Source: Pirellulales bacterium (lineage in GTDB: Bacteria; Planctomycetota; Planctomycetia; Pirellulales; JAICIG01). From it: a stretch of DNA of 17,014 nt. The position numbers and the translations under genes are program-made. How positions within the stretch are numbered: position 1 is the first letter of the stretch; each line of letters begins with the position of its first letter. Below the pieces are notes generated by a model that was given only the letters and a program-made list of their open reading frames with translations, made no database searches and was not told the origin of the DNA. Where the stretch lies: contig JAICIG010000139.1 of the NCBI GenBank assembly GCA_025924495.1, positions 1 through 17,014 of the forward strand, written 5' to 3'. Below are positions 2,850-17,014 of the stretch, piece by piece.

Positions 2850-3158
2850 ATGGGTTGGGTGACTGATGCGCTAAAAGAACTCGATGCCGGACGCACAGCG
2901 CAAGTGCGTCCGCAGGGCGGATCGATGCGCGGACGCATTGAAAGCGGCCAGTTGGTCACGATTTGCCCCGTTTTGGCCAGCGAAGTCGCAGTTGATGACG
3001 TGGTCTTCGTGCGATGGAAGGGCAACTGCCTCCTGCATTTGGTGAAAGAGATCAAAGACGGCCAGTTCTTGATCGGCAACAATGTCGGCAAGACCAATGG
3101 TTGGGTCGCCGCGGATGCAATTCTCGGAAAGGTGATTTCCATCGGTGAAGAAACGTAG
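2850..3158 (+). CDS. Small S24/S26-type serine peptidase-like protein
   Basis: 102 residues, with the shape of the LexA/UmuD/signal-peptidase catalytic core and little else. The putative nucleophile Ser25 sits in RPQGGSMRGRI, matching the 'GxSMxPxI' box of S24/S26. 'ESGQLVTI' follows, standing where GDxV usually is, then DDVVFVRWKGNCLLHLVKEI and FLIGNNVGKTNGWV. The position after the beta strand is His63 (LLHLV) rather than an obvious Lys. This resembles the Ser-His arrangement of Sec11-type S26B enzymes rather than the Ser-Lys dyad of LexA. There is no membrane anchor or DNA-binding domain, so it is neither a classic signal peptidase nor a repressor. The start follows a weak GAGAGAA. Substrate and activity are unknown. 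It is probably cotranscribed with the membrane protein 71 bases downstream. Confidence 0.68.
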   Translation: MGWVTDALKELDAGRTAQVRPQGGSMRGRIESGQLVTICPVLASEVAVDDVVFVRWKGNCLLHLVKEIKDGQFLIGNNVGKTNGWVAADAILGKVISIGEET

Positions 3159-8853: not shown

Positions 8854-10548
8854 ATGCCGCTCTATGTCCCGATCGTGTTCTTCTTGGCAGTGCCCCTCGA
8901 GGCGCTGCTCATCGGCACGCTCGCGCTGTGGCTGGGTTGCCGCTGGCTCAAAGTTCCTGGCGTGAACGGTCGGCGAGCGCTGGTCGTCAACGGCGCCTCA
9001 ATCGGCGTGGCGATCGTTTGCCAGTTGGTGGTGGCTTTGCTACTGGTTTTGACGAGCATGATTGAGACAGCCGGTTCTGTCGCGACCAGTCTCATACTAG
9101 TGGCGGTTTTATTAGGGGGGCTGATCGCCAGCGTGGCCGCGCAGGTCATAGTTATCGCCAGGCTAGTTGGTGCGCAAAAGTGGAAGGCGTTTGTGGTCTG
9201 GTTGTTCATGAATGCGACCGTTGTAGCGCTTAACTTGGGCTTAGCCGTCGTTGCAAAAACTGCCATCGTCGAAGCTTTCGTGATGCCGACCAACGCTATG
9301 GCCCCGACGATTTTCGGCGTGCACGCGGATCGTGTTTGTTCTCATTGCGGTTACTCATTCGCGGTAGGTCTCTCGCAACGAGTCGCGCCCGAATTTGCCG
9401 ATGCCGCTCGTTGGGCGAAGCGCATCCGACCGGTCGTTACGGCATGCCCCAATTGCCGCCATGTAGATACGATTAGCGTCGACGCGCCCATGCGCAAAGG
9501 CGATCGATTGCTTGTGGATAAGCAAGTGATGCCGGCTCGGTGGGAACTCGTTGTCTTTCGCAATCCCGAAGACCGGAAGGTTCTATTCGCCAAACGGCTC
9601 GTCGGCTTGCCCAGCGAGACGATCGAGATTGTAGCGGGAGAGGTGTTCATCGACGGCAAACGGTTGCAAAAGCCGCCGACCGTGGCCCAAGATCTCTGGT
9701 TGCACATCCATGACACCGCATTTCGTGCAAAGGTCTCCGCGCCCGATGACCCCGGTTGGCGTCCGGCAGAGCAAGACTCCGCCTGGCGCGCAGAGCAGGG
9801 GGGCTGGACATGCGGCGGCGAAATGCGGCGAGAGAGCTTGGACTACGTCGGGCCGATCGATGACTTCGAGGCTTACAACGCAAAGGAAACTGGTTATGAC
9901 CCTGAGTCTTTCGAACAACACATGGTAGGAGACGTGTTGGTAGCCTGCGATGTCGTTTCCTTGTCGGGCTCAGGACGCTTCGGCCTGCAGTGGAAGTTCC
10001 GCGGAGACTCGGTCGAGGCCTACGTCCGCCCCGACGGCGCCGTCGATCTCGAGGTCGACTCGCACAACGATCAGGGCGAGCGCGTTCGCGATCGTCTGAG
10101 CGGCAAGTTGGGCGCGCCGTTGAAGACGGGCCATCGTTTAGGGTTCGCCATTCGCGATGGTCAGGCGTACGTGGTGCATAACGAACGCATCGTTTTGCTC
10201 CAGCCTTTCGGGCCGCAAGATGTCGCAAGCGCCAAGCGAGATGCGGACAAACTAGCGGGGCTTTGTCGTGTGTCGTTGATTGCCGACAAGTGCCACGTGT
10301 CGCTTAACCGCATCGTGCTGGTGCGAGACGTCTATTATCTCGCCGGCGATAACGACGACGGTTTTAACTTCATGCGCGGCGGTCGCGACAACCCGGTGAC
10401 GCTTGGCGAAACCGAGTATTTCGCCTTAGGAGATAACAGCGCGCTAAGCAAGGACTCGCGATTTTATGGCGACATTCAGGCGTCCGATTTGATCGGAACG
10501 CCCAGGTGGATTTATTGGCCGCACCGCCGATGGCACGCATTTCATTAA
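8854..10548 (+). CDS. Signal peptidase I-like (S26) membrane protein lacking the catalytic serine, with zinc-ribbon insert
   Basis: 564 residues, well above usual SPase I lengths. About four membrane helices (5-28, 42-66, 78-103, 112-137) precede the S26 domain. Box B reads MPTNAMAPTI (144-153): Ala148 stands where the nucleophilic Ser of 'GSMxPT' belongs. The general-base Lys is kept (Lys247 in LFAKRLVGLPSETIEI), as is box E (ALGDNSALSKDSRFYG, 524-539). Right after box B, CSHC (162-165) and CPNC (198-201) form a probable zinc ribbon. Between box D and box E is an insert of about 250 residues, where the variable domain of SPase I also lies. It is beta-rich (FGLQWKFRGDSVEAYVRPDG, LGFAIRDGQAYVVHNERIVL), suggesting a LamG-like sandwich, and ends with an extra box-E-like AGDN (497-500). 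With Ser missing it should not cleave by the normal mechanism; a binding or chaperone role is inferred. It converges with the kinase gene, 13 bases apart. Confidence 0.85.
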   Translation: MPLYVPIVFFLAVPLEALLIGTLALWLGCRWLKVPGVNGRRALVVNGASIGVAIVCQLVVALLLVLTSMIETAGSVATSLILVAVLLGGLIASVAAQVIVIARLVGAQKWKAFVVWLFMNATVVALNLGLAVVAKTAIVEAFVMPTNAMAPTIFGVHADRVCSHCGYSFAVGLSQRVAPEFADAARWAKRIRPVVTACPNCRHVDTISVDAPMRKGDRLLVDKQVMPARWELVVFRNPEDRKVLFAKRLVGLPSETIEIVAGEVFIDGKRLQKPPTVAQDLWLHIHDTAFRAKVSAPDDPGWRPAEQDSAWRAEQGGWTCGGEMRRESLDYVGPIDDFEAYNAKETGYDPESFEQHMVGDVLVACDVVSLSGSGRFGLQWKFRGDSVEAYVRPDGAVDLEVDSHNDQGERVRDRLSGKLGAPLKTGHRLGFAIRDGQAYVVHNERIVLLQPFGPQDVASAKRDADKLAGLCRVSLIADKCHVSLNRIVLVRDVYYLAGDNDDGFNFMRGGRDNPVTLGETEYFALGDNSALSKDSRFYGDIQASDLIGTPRWIYWPHRRWHAFH

Positions 10549-14361: not shown

Positions 14362-16599
14362 CTACAGGCGGAAGTTGAACGTCTGGGTGATATATCGCCA
14401 CAGCCGATGGCCAAGCGTTTGCGGCTCCGTCTGGATCCGGCTGCGGCCGCGCAGGCCGATGCGAAGCAGGTCCTCCGGATCGTCCAGCGGCACTCGAACC
14501 TGATACGAGGTGTTCAAAGGACGCTCGACGCCCGACTCATCGGTCTTGGTGGCCAACTCGCCGCCCGCCTTGTTGGAAAGGTGCCGGGGGCTGACGGTCA
14601 ATGGCTCGGCGCCGATTTCGGCAATCTCGCCGCTCAGCGTCTCGGCCGGCAGTTCATCCAGTTTTACCTCGGCGGTCTGGCCCTTCCTGAGATACTCGAT
14701 GTCTTCCTGATCGACGACGAGGAGCGCTTCCATTTTGTGGGGATCGCCGACCAGACAGAACAGCACGCCTTGCTCGAGATAGGCGTTACGGTTCTTGGGA
14801 TCGAGCGGGGTTCCGCTCCAATGCTGAAGCTGCTTGTCCTGATTCCGCTTCGCCGGAAGTTCGGGCGGAGGCAGCACAGTTCCGCTCACCGGAGAGACGA
14901 GTGTCAGGCGCTCCAGATCGAACTGCTTGTCAGCGATTTGTTTATTCAAGGCGGCCAGCATCTCGCGTAGCGGCTGAACTTGCAGGCTGGCGCCCTGGGG
15001 ATCTCGAGTCATCTGCACCTGCAGACTCTCGAGCTGCGTCTGATTCTGATCGCGTTCTCCCTTCAGCTCGGCCAAGGAAAGGTCGACATCCAGATTGACC
15101 AATTGTGCCAACCGGGCGTTCTGTTCGACCTGATCGCCCGGTTTGACAAAGACATCTTCCAATTCGCCAGGGACGCTGACATAAATGCTCTTGGCTTCGC
15201 GCGGCTGAATCTCCAGCGTGCAGTACACGCGGTGCGGCAGCGGAATGAAAAGCACAGCCGCGGCGACTGCCGCGAGCACGCCCAGCGTCGCATACATGCG
15301 CCCTTTTTTCACCTTTTCGAGTCTCCCAGGCACATAGAAGAACTTGCCCAATTTCCACAAAGGCTGGATCGCCAGCCCGTAGATCGATGCCACGCCAATG
15401 ATCTGCCCGATGATTTCCAGCCGGTAAGGCTTCCAGATTTCGTACAAGAACCACAGGATCGAGAACACCACGACCCAGCGGTAGATGGCGGCGGCGATAC
15501 TGTACAGCGCGAAGAAGATCTGGTTGCGCTCGGGCAGAAATGGATCGTCCGGCTGCTCCAGTCCCAAGCACCAGTAGCCGAGCTTGCGGTTGAGAATGTC
15601 CGAGGCCTTCTGCCGCAAGTTGGGAATTTCCACGAGGTCGGCCAGGATGTAATAGCCGTCGTACCGCAAGAGCGGATTGGAATTGAACATCAACGTGCTG
15701 ACCGAACAGACGAACATGGTGCTCAAGCACAAGTGATTGAGCATGCCGGGTTCGGTAAACCACCAGATGAAGGTGCAAATCGAAGCGATGACGATTTCGA
15801 TGTACATGCCGCCGGCGCCGATCGCGATGCGATGCCATTTGTTCGGCAGCATCCAAGAGTCGGACACGTTGCAATACAAGCAGGGCGTCAGCACCAGCAC
15901 CATCACGCCCATCTCATGGCATTCGCCGCCGAAATGCTTGCAAGTCAGGCCGTGGCCGAACTCATGAATCACCTTGGTGACGCCCAGCGCAATCGACAAC
16001 CAGATGGCGTTTTTCAGGTTAAAGAACTGATGGAACGAAGGGAGTTTCGACTGAAATACGTCGAACTGGACCAGCACCAGCGATAACGCCGACAGCGCCA
16101 GGATGGCACAGCATGCCACGGCGGTGCGCGAGTACATCCATTTCAGCTTGGGATGCATCCATTCCAACAGCCGATCGGGATCGATCCCCTTGAAGCGTAT
16201 GGAAAGGATATTGCTGAGCTTGTTCAGCCATTCTTTGCGCCACCGCTCGTCGCGTCGGATCTTAAGCTGTTTGCCCTGGCCCGGCACGTTGGCAATGATC
16301 AACCCGCTGCGATGCAGCATGCCGATGAATTGCTGAAGCTCTTCAACGCCGATCTTCTGCGGCGGAAAGCGAGCTTCGAACTCGGCCTTGATGTCGTCCA
16401 GGCTCGACTTGCCGTCGAGCATCAGCAGGATGGCGTATTCCTCTTCCTGAAAGCGGAAGTAGTTCAGCCCGACAGGTTCCTTGACGACCCAGTACACGCG
16501 ACCCTGGTAGCGGTGCTGCCGCGCCGACAGATCGGGCCGCATGCGCATCGCCAGTTTGCGTGCGGAACTGGAAACCAGACTGTCAGCAAGGGTCGCCAT
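14362..16599 (-). CDS. PqqD-like / M50 metalloprotease / HlyD-like fusion membrane protein
   Basis: 745 residues in three parts. Residues 22-105 look PqqD-like (YWVVKEPVGLNYFRFQEEEY, LLMLDGKSSLDDIKAEFEARF, FIGMLHRSGLI), the small winged-helix fold that binds leader peptides in RiPP systems. Residues 155-455 are a polytopic M50 (site-2 protease family) domain: zinc motif HEFGHG with His212, Glu213 and His216 in the second helix, and the third-ligand motif NSNPLLRYDGYY with Asp314, plus several further helices (257-280, 360-388, 396-412, 437-453). Residues 460-725 form a membrane-fusion (HlyD) module: a split lipoyl-like motif (SVPGELEDVFVKPGDQVEQN and LTLVSPVSGTVLPPP) around a coiled-coil hairpin (505-562), then a beta barrel. 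Such fusions suggest processing or export of a peptide across the envelope. The ATG at 16599 has no clear Shine-Dalgarno. It follows the adaptor gene by 90 bases and is probably cotranscribed with it. Confidence 0.9.
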   Translation of the reverse strand: MATLADSLVSSSARKLAMRMRPDLSARQHRYQGRVYWVVKEPVGLNYFRFQEEEYAILLMLDGKSSLDDIKAEFEARFPPQKIGVEELQQFIGMLHRSGLIIANVPGQGKQLKIRRDERWRKEWLNKLSNILSIRFKGIDPDRLLEWMHPKLKWMYSRTAVACCAILALSALSLVLVQFDVFQSKLPSFHQFFNLKNAIWLSIALGVTKVIHEFGHGLTCKHFGGECHEMGVMVLVLTPCLYCNVSDSWMLPNKWHRIAIGAGGMYIEIVIASICTFIWWFTEPGMLNHLCLSTMFVCSVSTLMFNSNPLLRYDGYYILADLVEIPNLRQKASDILNRKLGYWCLGLEQPDDPFLPERNQIFFALYSIAAAIYRWVVVFSILWFLYEIWKPYRLEIIGQIIGVASIYGLAIQPLWKLGKFFYVPGRLEKVKKGRMYATLGVLAAVAAAVLFIPLPHRVYCTLEIQPREAKSIYVSVPGELEDVFVKPGDQVEQNARLAQLVNLDVDLSLAELKGERDQNQTQLESLQVQMTRDPQGASLQVQPLREMLAALNKQIADKQFDLERLTLVSPVSGTVLPPPELPAKRNQDKQLQHWSGTPLDPKNRNAYLEQGVLFCLVGDPHKMEALLVVDQEDIEYLRKGQTAEVKLDELPAETLSGEIAEIGAEPLTVSPRHLSNKAGGELATKTDESGVERPLNTSYQVRVPLDDPEDLLRIGLRGRSRIQTEPQTLGHRLWRYITQTFNFRL

Positions 16600-16689: not shown

Positions 16690-17014
16690 TTAGCGGTTCG
16701 ATCGATCGGTGAGCTTGGCGACTCCGGCATCGATGGTCATGTCGACCGTCGTACCCGGCAGCAGCAGCCAGGCGCCGTCTTCTTCGCGATTTTCTACTTC
16801 GGCTTTGACGCGGTACTCGCCGCCTTGCAGAACGCGCATGTCGATGAACACGACTTTGCCGCGAAATTCTTGTTTCTTGCCGCCGGTCAAGGTAGCAGTG
16901 ATTCGCACGGGGCGCTCGATGACTTCCGTGGGGGAGACGTCGGCGATGCTCAAGTTGCCTTCGACTCGCAGTTTGTCCATGCGCAGCAATTGTACGACTC
17001 GATCACCCGGATTG
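16690..17014 (-). CDS. Periplasmic adaptor (HlyD/RND-MFP type), C-terminal part; 5' end outside window
   Basis: The frame is open to the right edge and reads NPGDRVVQLLRMDKLRVEGN there, so the start lies beyond the window. The sequence matches the beta-barrel and membrane-proximal end of membrane-fusion proteins. 'PGDRVVQLLRMDKLRVEG' fits the end of the lipoyl region and first barrel strand. VRITATLTGGKKQEFRGKVVFIDMRVLQGGEYRVKAEVENRE fits the barrel's flap-like strands, and LLLPGTTVDMTIDAG the usual 'l.pGm.v.v.i' end. Such adaptors bridge an inner-membrane transporter and an outer-membrane channel. It lies just upstream of the M50-HlyD fusion on the same strand, so two adaptor-type modules probably act in one complex. 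The cognate transporter is not visible. Confidence 0.8.
   Translation of the reverse strand, partial: NPGDRVVQLLRMDKLRVEGNLSIADVSPTEVIERPVRITATLTGGKKQEFRGKVVFIDMRVLQGGEYRVKAEVENREEDGAWLLLPGTTVDMTIDAGVAKLTDRSNR

Follow-up and report, generated by a model that had tools for sequence, protein, structure and literature searches.

A planctomycete signal peptidase-like protein with alanine at the nucleophile position belongs to a four-helix clade in which the catalytic dyad changes repeatedly

We analysed a 17,014-nucleotide stretch of DNA from a Pirellulales bacterium (contig JAICIG010000139.1; hereafter the window) and found that a forward-strand gene at 8854..10548 encodes a protein with the signal peptidase I (SPase I, family S26) fold in which alanine stands at the position of the catalytic serine. 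Comparison with its relatives points to a real, lineage-level pseudo-signal-peptidase from a mostly planctomycete clade of 35 proteins, and the surprise is the repeated catalytic change inside this one architecturally marked clade, not the lone alanine. Because the fold is kept while the cutting site changed repeatedly, we consider it somewhat probable that the protein is a membrane-anchored pseudo-signal-peptidase that binds exported proteins rather than cutting them.

The 564-residue product matches PF10502 (Peptidase_S26) at 83.6 bits against a curated cut-off of 22.9 in a Pfam profile scan, and TIGR02227 (signal peptidase I) at 81.6 bits against a cut-off of 47; structure prediction gives it the SPase fold. 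A sequence-only reading of this DNA had started the gene at 9280, which is residue 143; the start at 8854 is supported because the alignment with the homologue P0003 begins at residue 1, and the 142 residues ahead of 9280 contain four predicted membrane helices. That reading correctly reported box B (MPTNAMAPTI, with Ala148 in the 564-residue numbering), Lys247, box E (GDNSALSKDSR) and the two cysteine pairs. The second GDN motif to which it drew attention, at residues 498-500, is present but not conserved, and we regard it as incidental because the aligned stretch differs in P0003-P0006. The features of the gene are:

8854..10548, forward strand: whole gene, 564 residues, apparent S26 (signal peptidase I fold) pseudo-peptidase, from PF10502 and TIGR02227 matches
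8863..9267, forward strand: N-terminal four-helix membrane domain, residues 4-138, predicted from AlphaFold2 helices and loop charges
9280..9315, forward strand: box B VMPTNAMAPTIF, residues 143-154, from sequence and alignments
9295..9297, forward strand: Ala148 codon at the catalytic-Ser position, from alignments, tree and counts
9337..9456, forward strand: zinc-ribbon-like stretch with Cys162, Cys165, Cys198 and Cys201, read from sequence
9493..9678, forward strand: boxes C and D, residues 214-275, GDRLLVDK and AKRLVGLP, from sequence and alignments
9592..9594, forward strand: Lys247 codon at the general-base Lys position, from sequence and alignment
9679..10353, forward strand: concanavalin-like jelly-roll insert, residues 276-500, RDVYY at 491-495
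10408..10545, forward strand: box E and C-terminus, residues 519-564, GDNSALSKDSR at 526-536, from sequence and alignments

A homologue search in which 7998 candidates were scored, out of about 5.8 billion proteins, yielded 20 homologues besides the query protein. The four nearest, P0003-P0006 (JGI, ENA and LGN sources), are 52-57% identical to it over the full length, and all four carry Ala at the Ser site while keeping Lys and box E; Ala148 is therefore a fixed lineage trait, beyond chance, which bears out the sequence-only reading on this point. The query departs from active signal peptidase I (S26A) in lacking the Ser nucleophile of box B and agrees with it in its Lys general base and box E, where Ser532, Asp534 and Arg536 are retained; the positions of the putative cleft stay hydrophobic in sequence. 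Across its five-member subclade (P0002-P0006), invariant positions number 10/17, 37/62 and 33/53 in the boxes, 85/225 in the insert and 29/138 in the helices.

A core tree built without the two catalytic columns gave a 35-row clade (support 98/95) that takes in every one of the 30 rows having at least four helices, plus five more. In these five the N-terminus is incomplete or a simple hydropathy count finds fewer helices (none in L002, two in L003, three in P0014, L009 and L013); L002 stops at a contig end, and L132, also in the clade, is incomplete in seemingly lacking box E. The tree draws on S26 proteins gathered by homology searching and from contigs as well as whole genomes, 97 of which were aligned out of 119 rows (113 plus six later additions). 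The 22 rows dropped before counting comprised fragmentary or misread frames that miss box B or the bulk of the core (L029_1261, L057_3, L064_3, L073_1, L023_2506), four rows of Streptomyces L014, two of Peptococcaceae L010, rows that were short or remote (L011, L012, L015, L016, L017, L091) and some very long frames (two of L081, one of L083 and two of L086). Among them, L012 (Gly/Gln) has a broken dyad and so does L015 (Ser/Gln), from records labelled Akkermansia and Verrucomicrobiales; the remaining dropped rows covering both sites are Ser/Lys, except the misaligned L029_1261.

Within the clade the Ser/Lys dyad is intact in 11 rows, Ser is replaced by Ala or Gly in 20, and Ser persists without Lys in four. 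Outside it, among 62 rows chosen by similarity to the query and not randomly, the dyad is intact in 60, the exceptions being P0020 (Ala/Lys) and L008 (Ser/Ser). On a 45-row tree, a single clade of all 24 broken rows was rejected (approximately unbiased test, p-AU 5e-6), as was a single clade of the 20 Ser-less rows (p=0.0014), although these values are optimistic because the groups were defined with the first tree already in view. Parsimony on this tree gave a minimum of eight dyad-state changes, a count that cannot separate loss from regain. Of the 20 Ser-less rows, 14 still carry Lys, as do 11 of the 15 Ser-bearing rows, so losses of the two residues look uncoupled and selection appears not to hold the pair together in this clade; the earlier expectation that Ala is fixed while Lys stays holds in the five-member subclade but only partly across the 35 rows. 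The frame around the missing nucleophile is conserved, as that reading had claimed: Arg248, Gly251 and Pro253 occur in 24/24 broken rows, Met149 in 23, Asp534 in 22 and Arg536 in 21, the misses including one truncated and one damaged row.

The four-helix N-terminus, left out by the earlier coordinates, is the feature associated with dyad loss. AlphaFold2 predicts helices at residues 4-31, 39-70, 76-105 and 109-138. Over 33 clade rows (the 35 minus L002 and L003), K+R exceeds D+E in 31 rows each for loops 1 and 3, and in eight for loop 2. Since loops 1 and 3 are net positive, the positive-inside rule predicts that the N-terminus and the S26 domain both lie outside the cytoplasm (N-out/C-out). 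The Escherichia coli enzyme LepB, which has two helices, likewise has its S26 domain on the outer side of the membrane and is not known to carry such a zinc ribbon or jelly roll.

The zinc ribbon and insert, taken in the sequence-only reading as marks of a special form, are instead general in Ser-bearing planctomycete SPases, most of which conserve the Cys pairs in our alignment. Ser/Lys planctomycete SPase I proteins such as L028, L097 and L093 share with the query the S26 boxes, two Cys pairs and a homologous RDVYY insert; unlike the query, which has four helices and Ala148 and falls in the separate 35-row clade, they usually have one N-terminal helix and an intact dyad. Planctomycete SPases thus generally bear Cys pairs and a lectin-like domain within the protease core, an arrangement for which we found no description in the literature searched. 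In three related Ser/Lys SPases (L024, L092, L098) both Cys pairs have seemingly disappeared from the aligned positions.

Under the favoured reading of a non-cutting, peptide-binding protein, the four helices would place the S26 domain on the outer side of the membrane, and its peptide-binding cleft would be kept. As Ala148 could not serve as a nucleophile, this cleft would most likely bind signal peptides or N-termini of exported proteins, perhaps aided by the jelly-roll domain, and the bound pre-proteins would be held, sorted or shielded while separate Ser/Lys SPases cut; the topology, the binding of peptides and a function as chaperone or adaptor are all putative. The sequence-only reading had proposed looking for a separate canonical SPase, and a PF10502 whole-genome search found an ordinary-type Ser/Lys enzyme alongside the four-helix member in 12 of 13 relatives' genomes (G007 is the exception), a count that leaves aside the query's own genome and eight further genomes or records with a four-helix protein.

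Non-cutting SPase homologues have been described from Gram-positive bacteria (PMC4049620 and PMC12445088). SipA of streptococcal pili, by analogy the nearest worked-out precedent for a non-cutting role, lacks both Ser and Lys in its structure, keeps the peptide cleft, and is non-proteolytic and required for pilus assembly (PMC4049620). Like the query it has an SPase fold without the catalytic Ser; unlike the query it has no Lys and sits in pilus clusters with sortase, and the accessible text mentions neither a zinc ribbon nor a jelly roll nor a four-helix domain for it (PMC4049620). The query is not a SipA, because Lys247 is kept, the architecture differs, and a Pfam scan of the 13-14 other window proteins found no sortase and no Gram-positive pilin, and no pilin match of any kind apart from a DUF1559 gene. 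SpsA of Staphylococcus is likewise an SPase homologue; a review describes it as inactive, with two conserved catalytic residues missing, and as dispensable beside active SpsB, and states no role for it in the accessible text (PMC12445088). E. coli LepB is an active Ser90/Lys145 enzyme (PMC4049620).

Several points weigh against peptide binding without cutting. Some of the 11 clade members that keep Ser and Lys may cut, and Lys247, which a pure scaffold would not need, is retained in the query. Within the subclade, conservation is lowest in the four-helix domain, and an earlier quick tree put four-helix rows in several unresolved branches. SipA bound none of the peptides tested in vitro (PMC4049620). 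Gene neighbourhoods suggest no partner, since none of the neighbours is conserved over the clade; ligand, partner and phenotype are all putative.

One alternative, which we think unlikely, makes the S26 part a mere scaffold, with function held by the jelly-roll (in glycan or wall binding) and four-helix domains while the catalytic site drifted. The concanavalin-like fold of the insert is common to lectins and carbohydrate-binding modules, and the uncoupled look of the Ser and Lys losses fits drift. However, 11 of the 35 clade rows lack the insert, with about 19-34 residues in its place, and five of these (P0018, L132, L135, L009, L013) have broken dyads; in the subclade, moreover, the boxes are better conserved than either the insert or the helices.

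Somewhat more doubtful is a gene family decaying after duplication, under relaxed selection and without present function. The long form is patchy, with matches at E <= 1e-100 in 5 of 296 genomes of one order and 3 of 392 in a phylum sample, and L132 seemingly loses its box E reading in the last third. Against decay, all parts are intact in a single frame in the five subclade members, which lie on different contigs, and broken rows retain the core. Two broken-dyad pairs from outside the query's subclade differ at codon positions 1/2/3 by 0.38/0.25/0.61 (535 codons) and 0.36/0.24/0.53 (550 codons), a pattern like that of proteins under constraint.

It is very improbable that the protein still cuts through another nucleophile or a Lys-only or substrate-assisted route. 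Lys247, Ser532, Asp534, Arg536 and Thr146 are all retained, but Thr146, which we take to be the LepB Ser88 position, is equally common in Ser-bearing enzymes (51/62 outside rows), and Lys is also missing in 6 of the 20 Ser-less rows. No core column gains Ser, Thr or Cys in those 20 rows, which leaves the earlier suggestion of a different nucleophile without support; the only enriched columns (309, 365, 371, 480) lie within the insert, partly owing to insert-less intact rows. A single mutation or a sequencing or assembly error, conceivable in that the exact gene is on one contig only, is contradicted by Ala in P0003-P0006, from three other sources, and in further lineages, and we give it practically no credence.

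Other degenerate or unusual forms appeared in the survey. L005, L007, L131-L136, P0018, L009 and L013 make up a short four-helix form that has no jelly-roll insert and likewise shows losses of Ser and Lys. L022 (G001) and L102 (G012), frames of 286 and 368 residues, represent a second, different-looking degenerate S26-like kind, in which both catalytic residues are apparently missing by eye (GEGMSPA or FDRMAPA at the Ser site; AGRLLAVP or VARILAVP at the Lys site). L081, L083 and L086 carry Ser/Lys SPase domains in frames of 1072-1272 residues, far above the usual length. In the window, the gene is neighboured by a DegT aminotransferase and a kinase, and a DUF1559 (PF07596) gene lies 6 kb away at 1488-2405 on the reverse strand (142.5 bits). 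A 102-residue frame at 2850-3158 on the forward strand looks like an isolated S24/S26-type domain; it has a GGSM motif and reaches 18.6 bits against Pfam S24, below the cut-off of 23.3. At 14362-16599 on the reverse strand, a 745-residue membrane protein combines in a single chain an HlyD_3 match above cut-off with sub-threshold stretches of M50 peptidase, HlyD_D23 and PqqD; the adjacent gene at 16690-17013 likewise matches HlyD_3.

More broadly, and tentatively, these proteins may form a dedicated four-helix pseudo-SPase family in Planctomycetota and relatives, many of them with a lectin-like domain, acting as export chaperones or adaptors that choose pre-proteins, perhaps glycosylated, for the cutting SPase, with catalysis dropped repeatedly since binding alone was selected. 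Beyond the Gram-positive bacteria, a whole clade preserves the fold through at least eight changes of its catalytic pair, with intact enzymes alongside, and what a non-cutting signal peptidase is used for becomes a testable question in planctomycetes.
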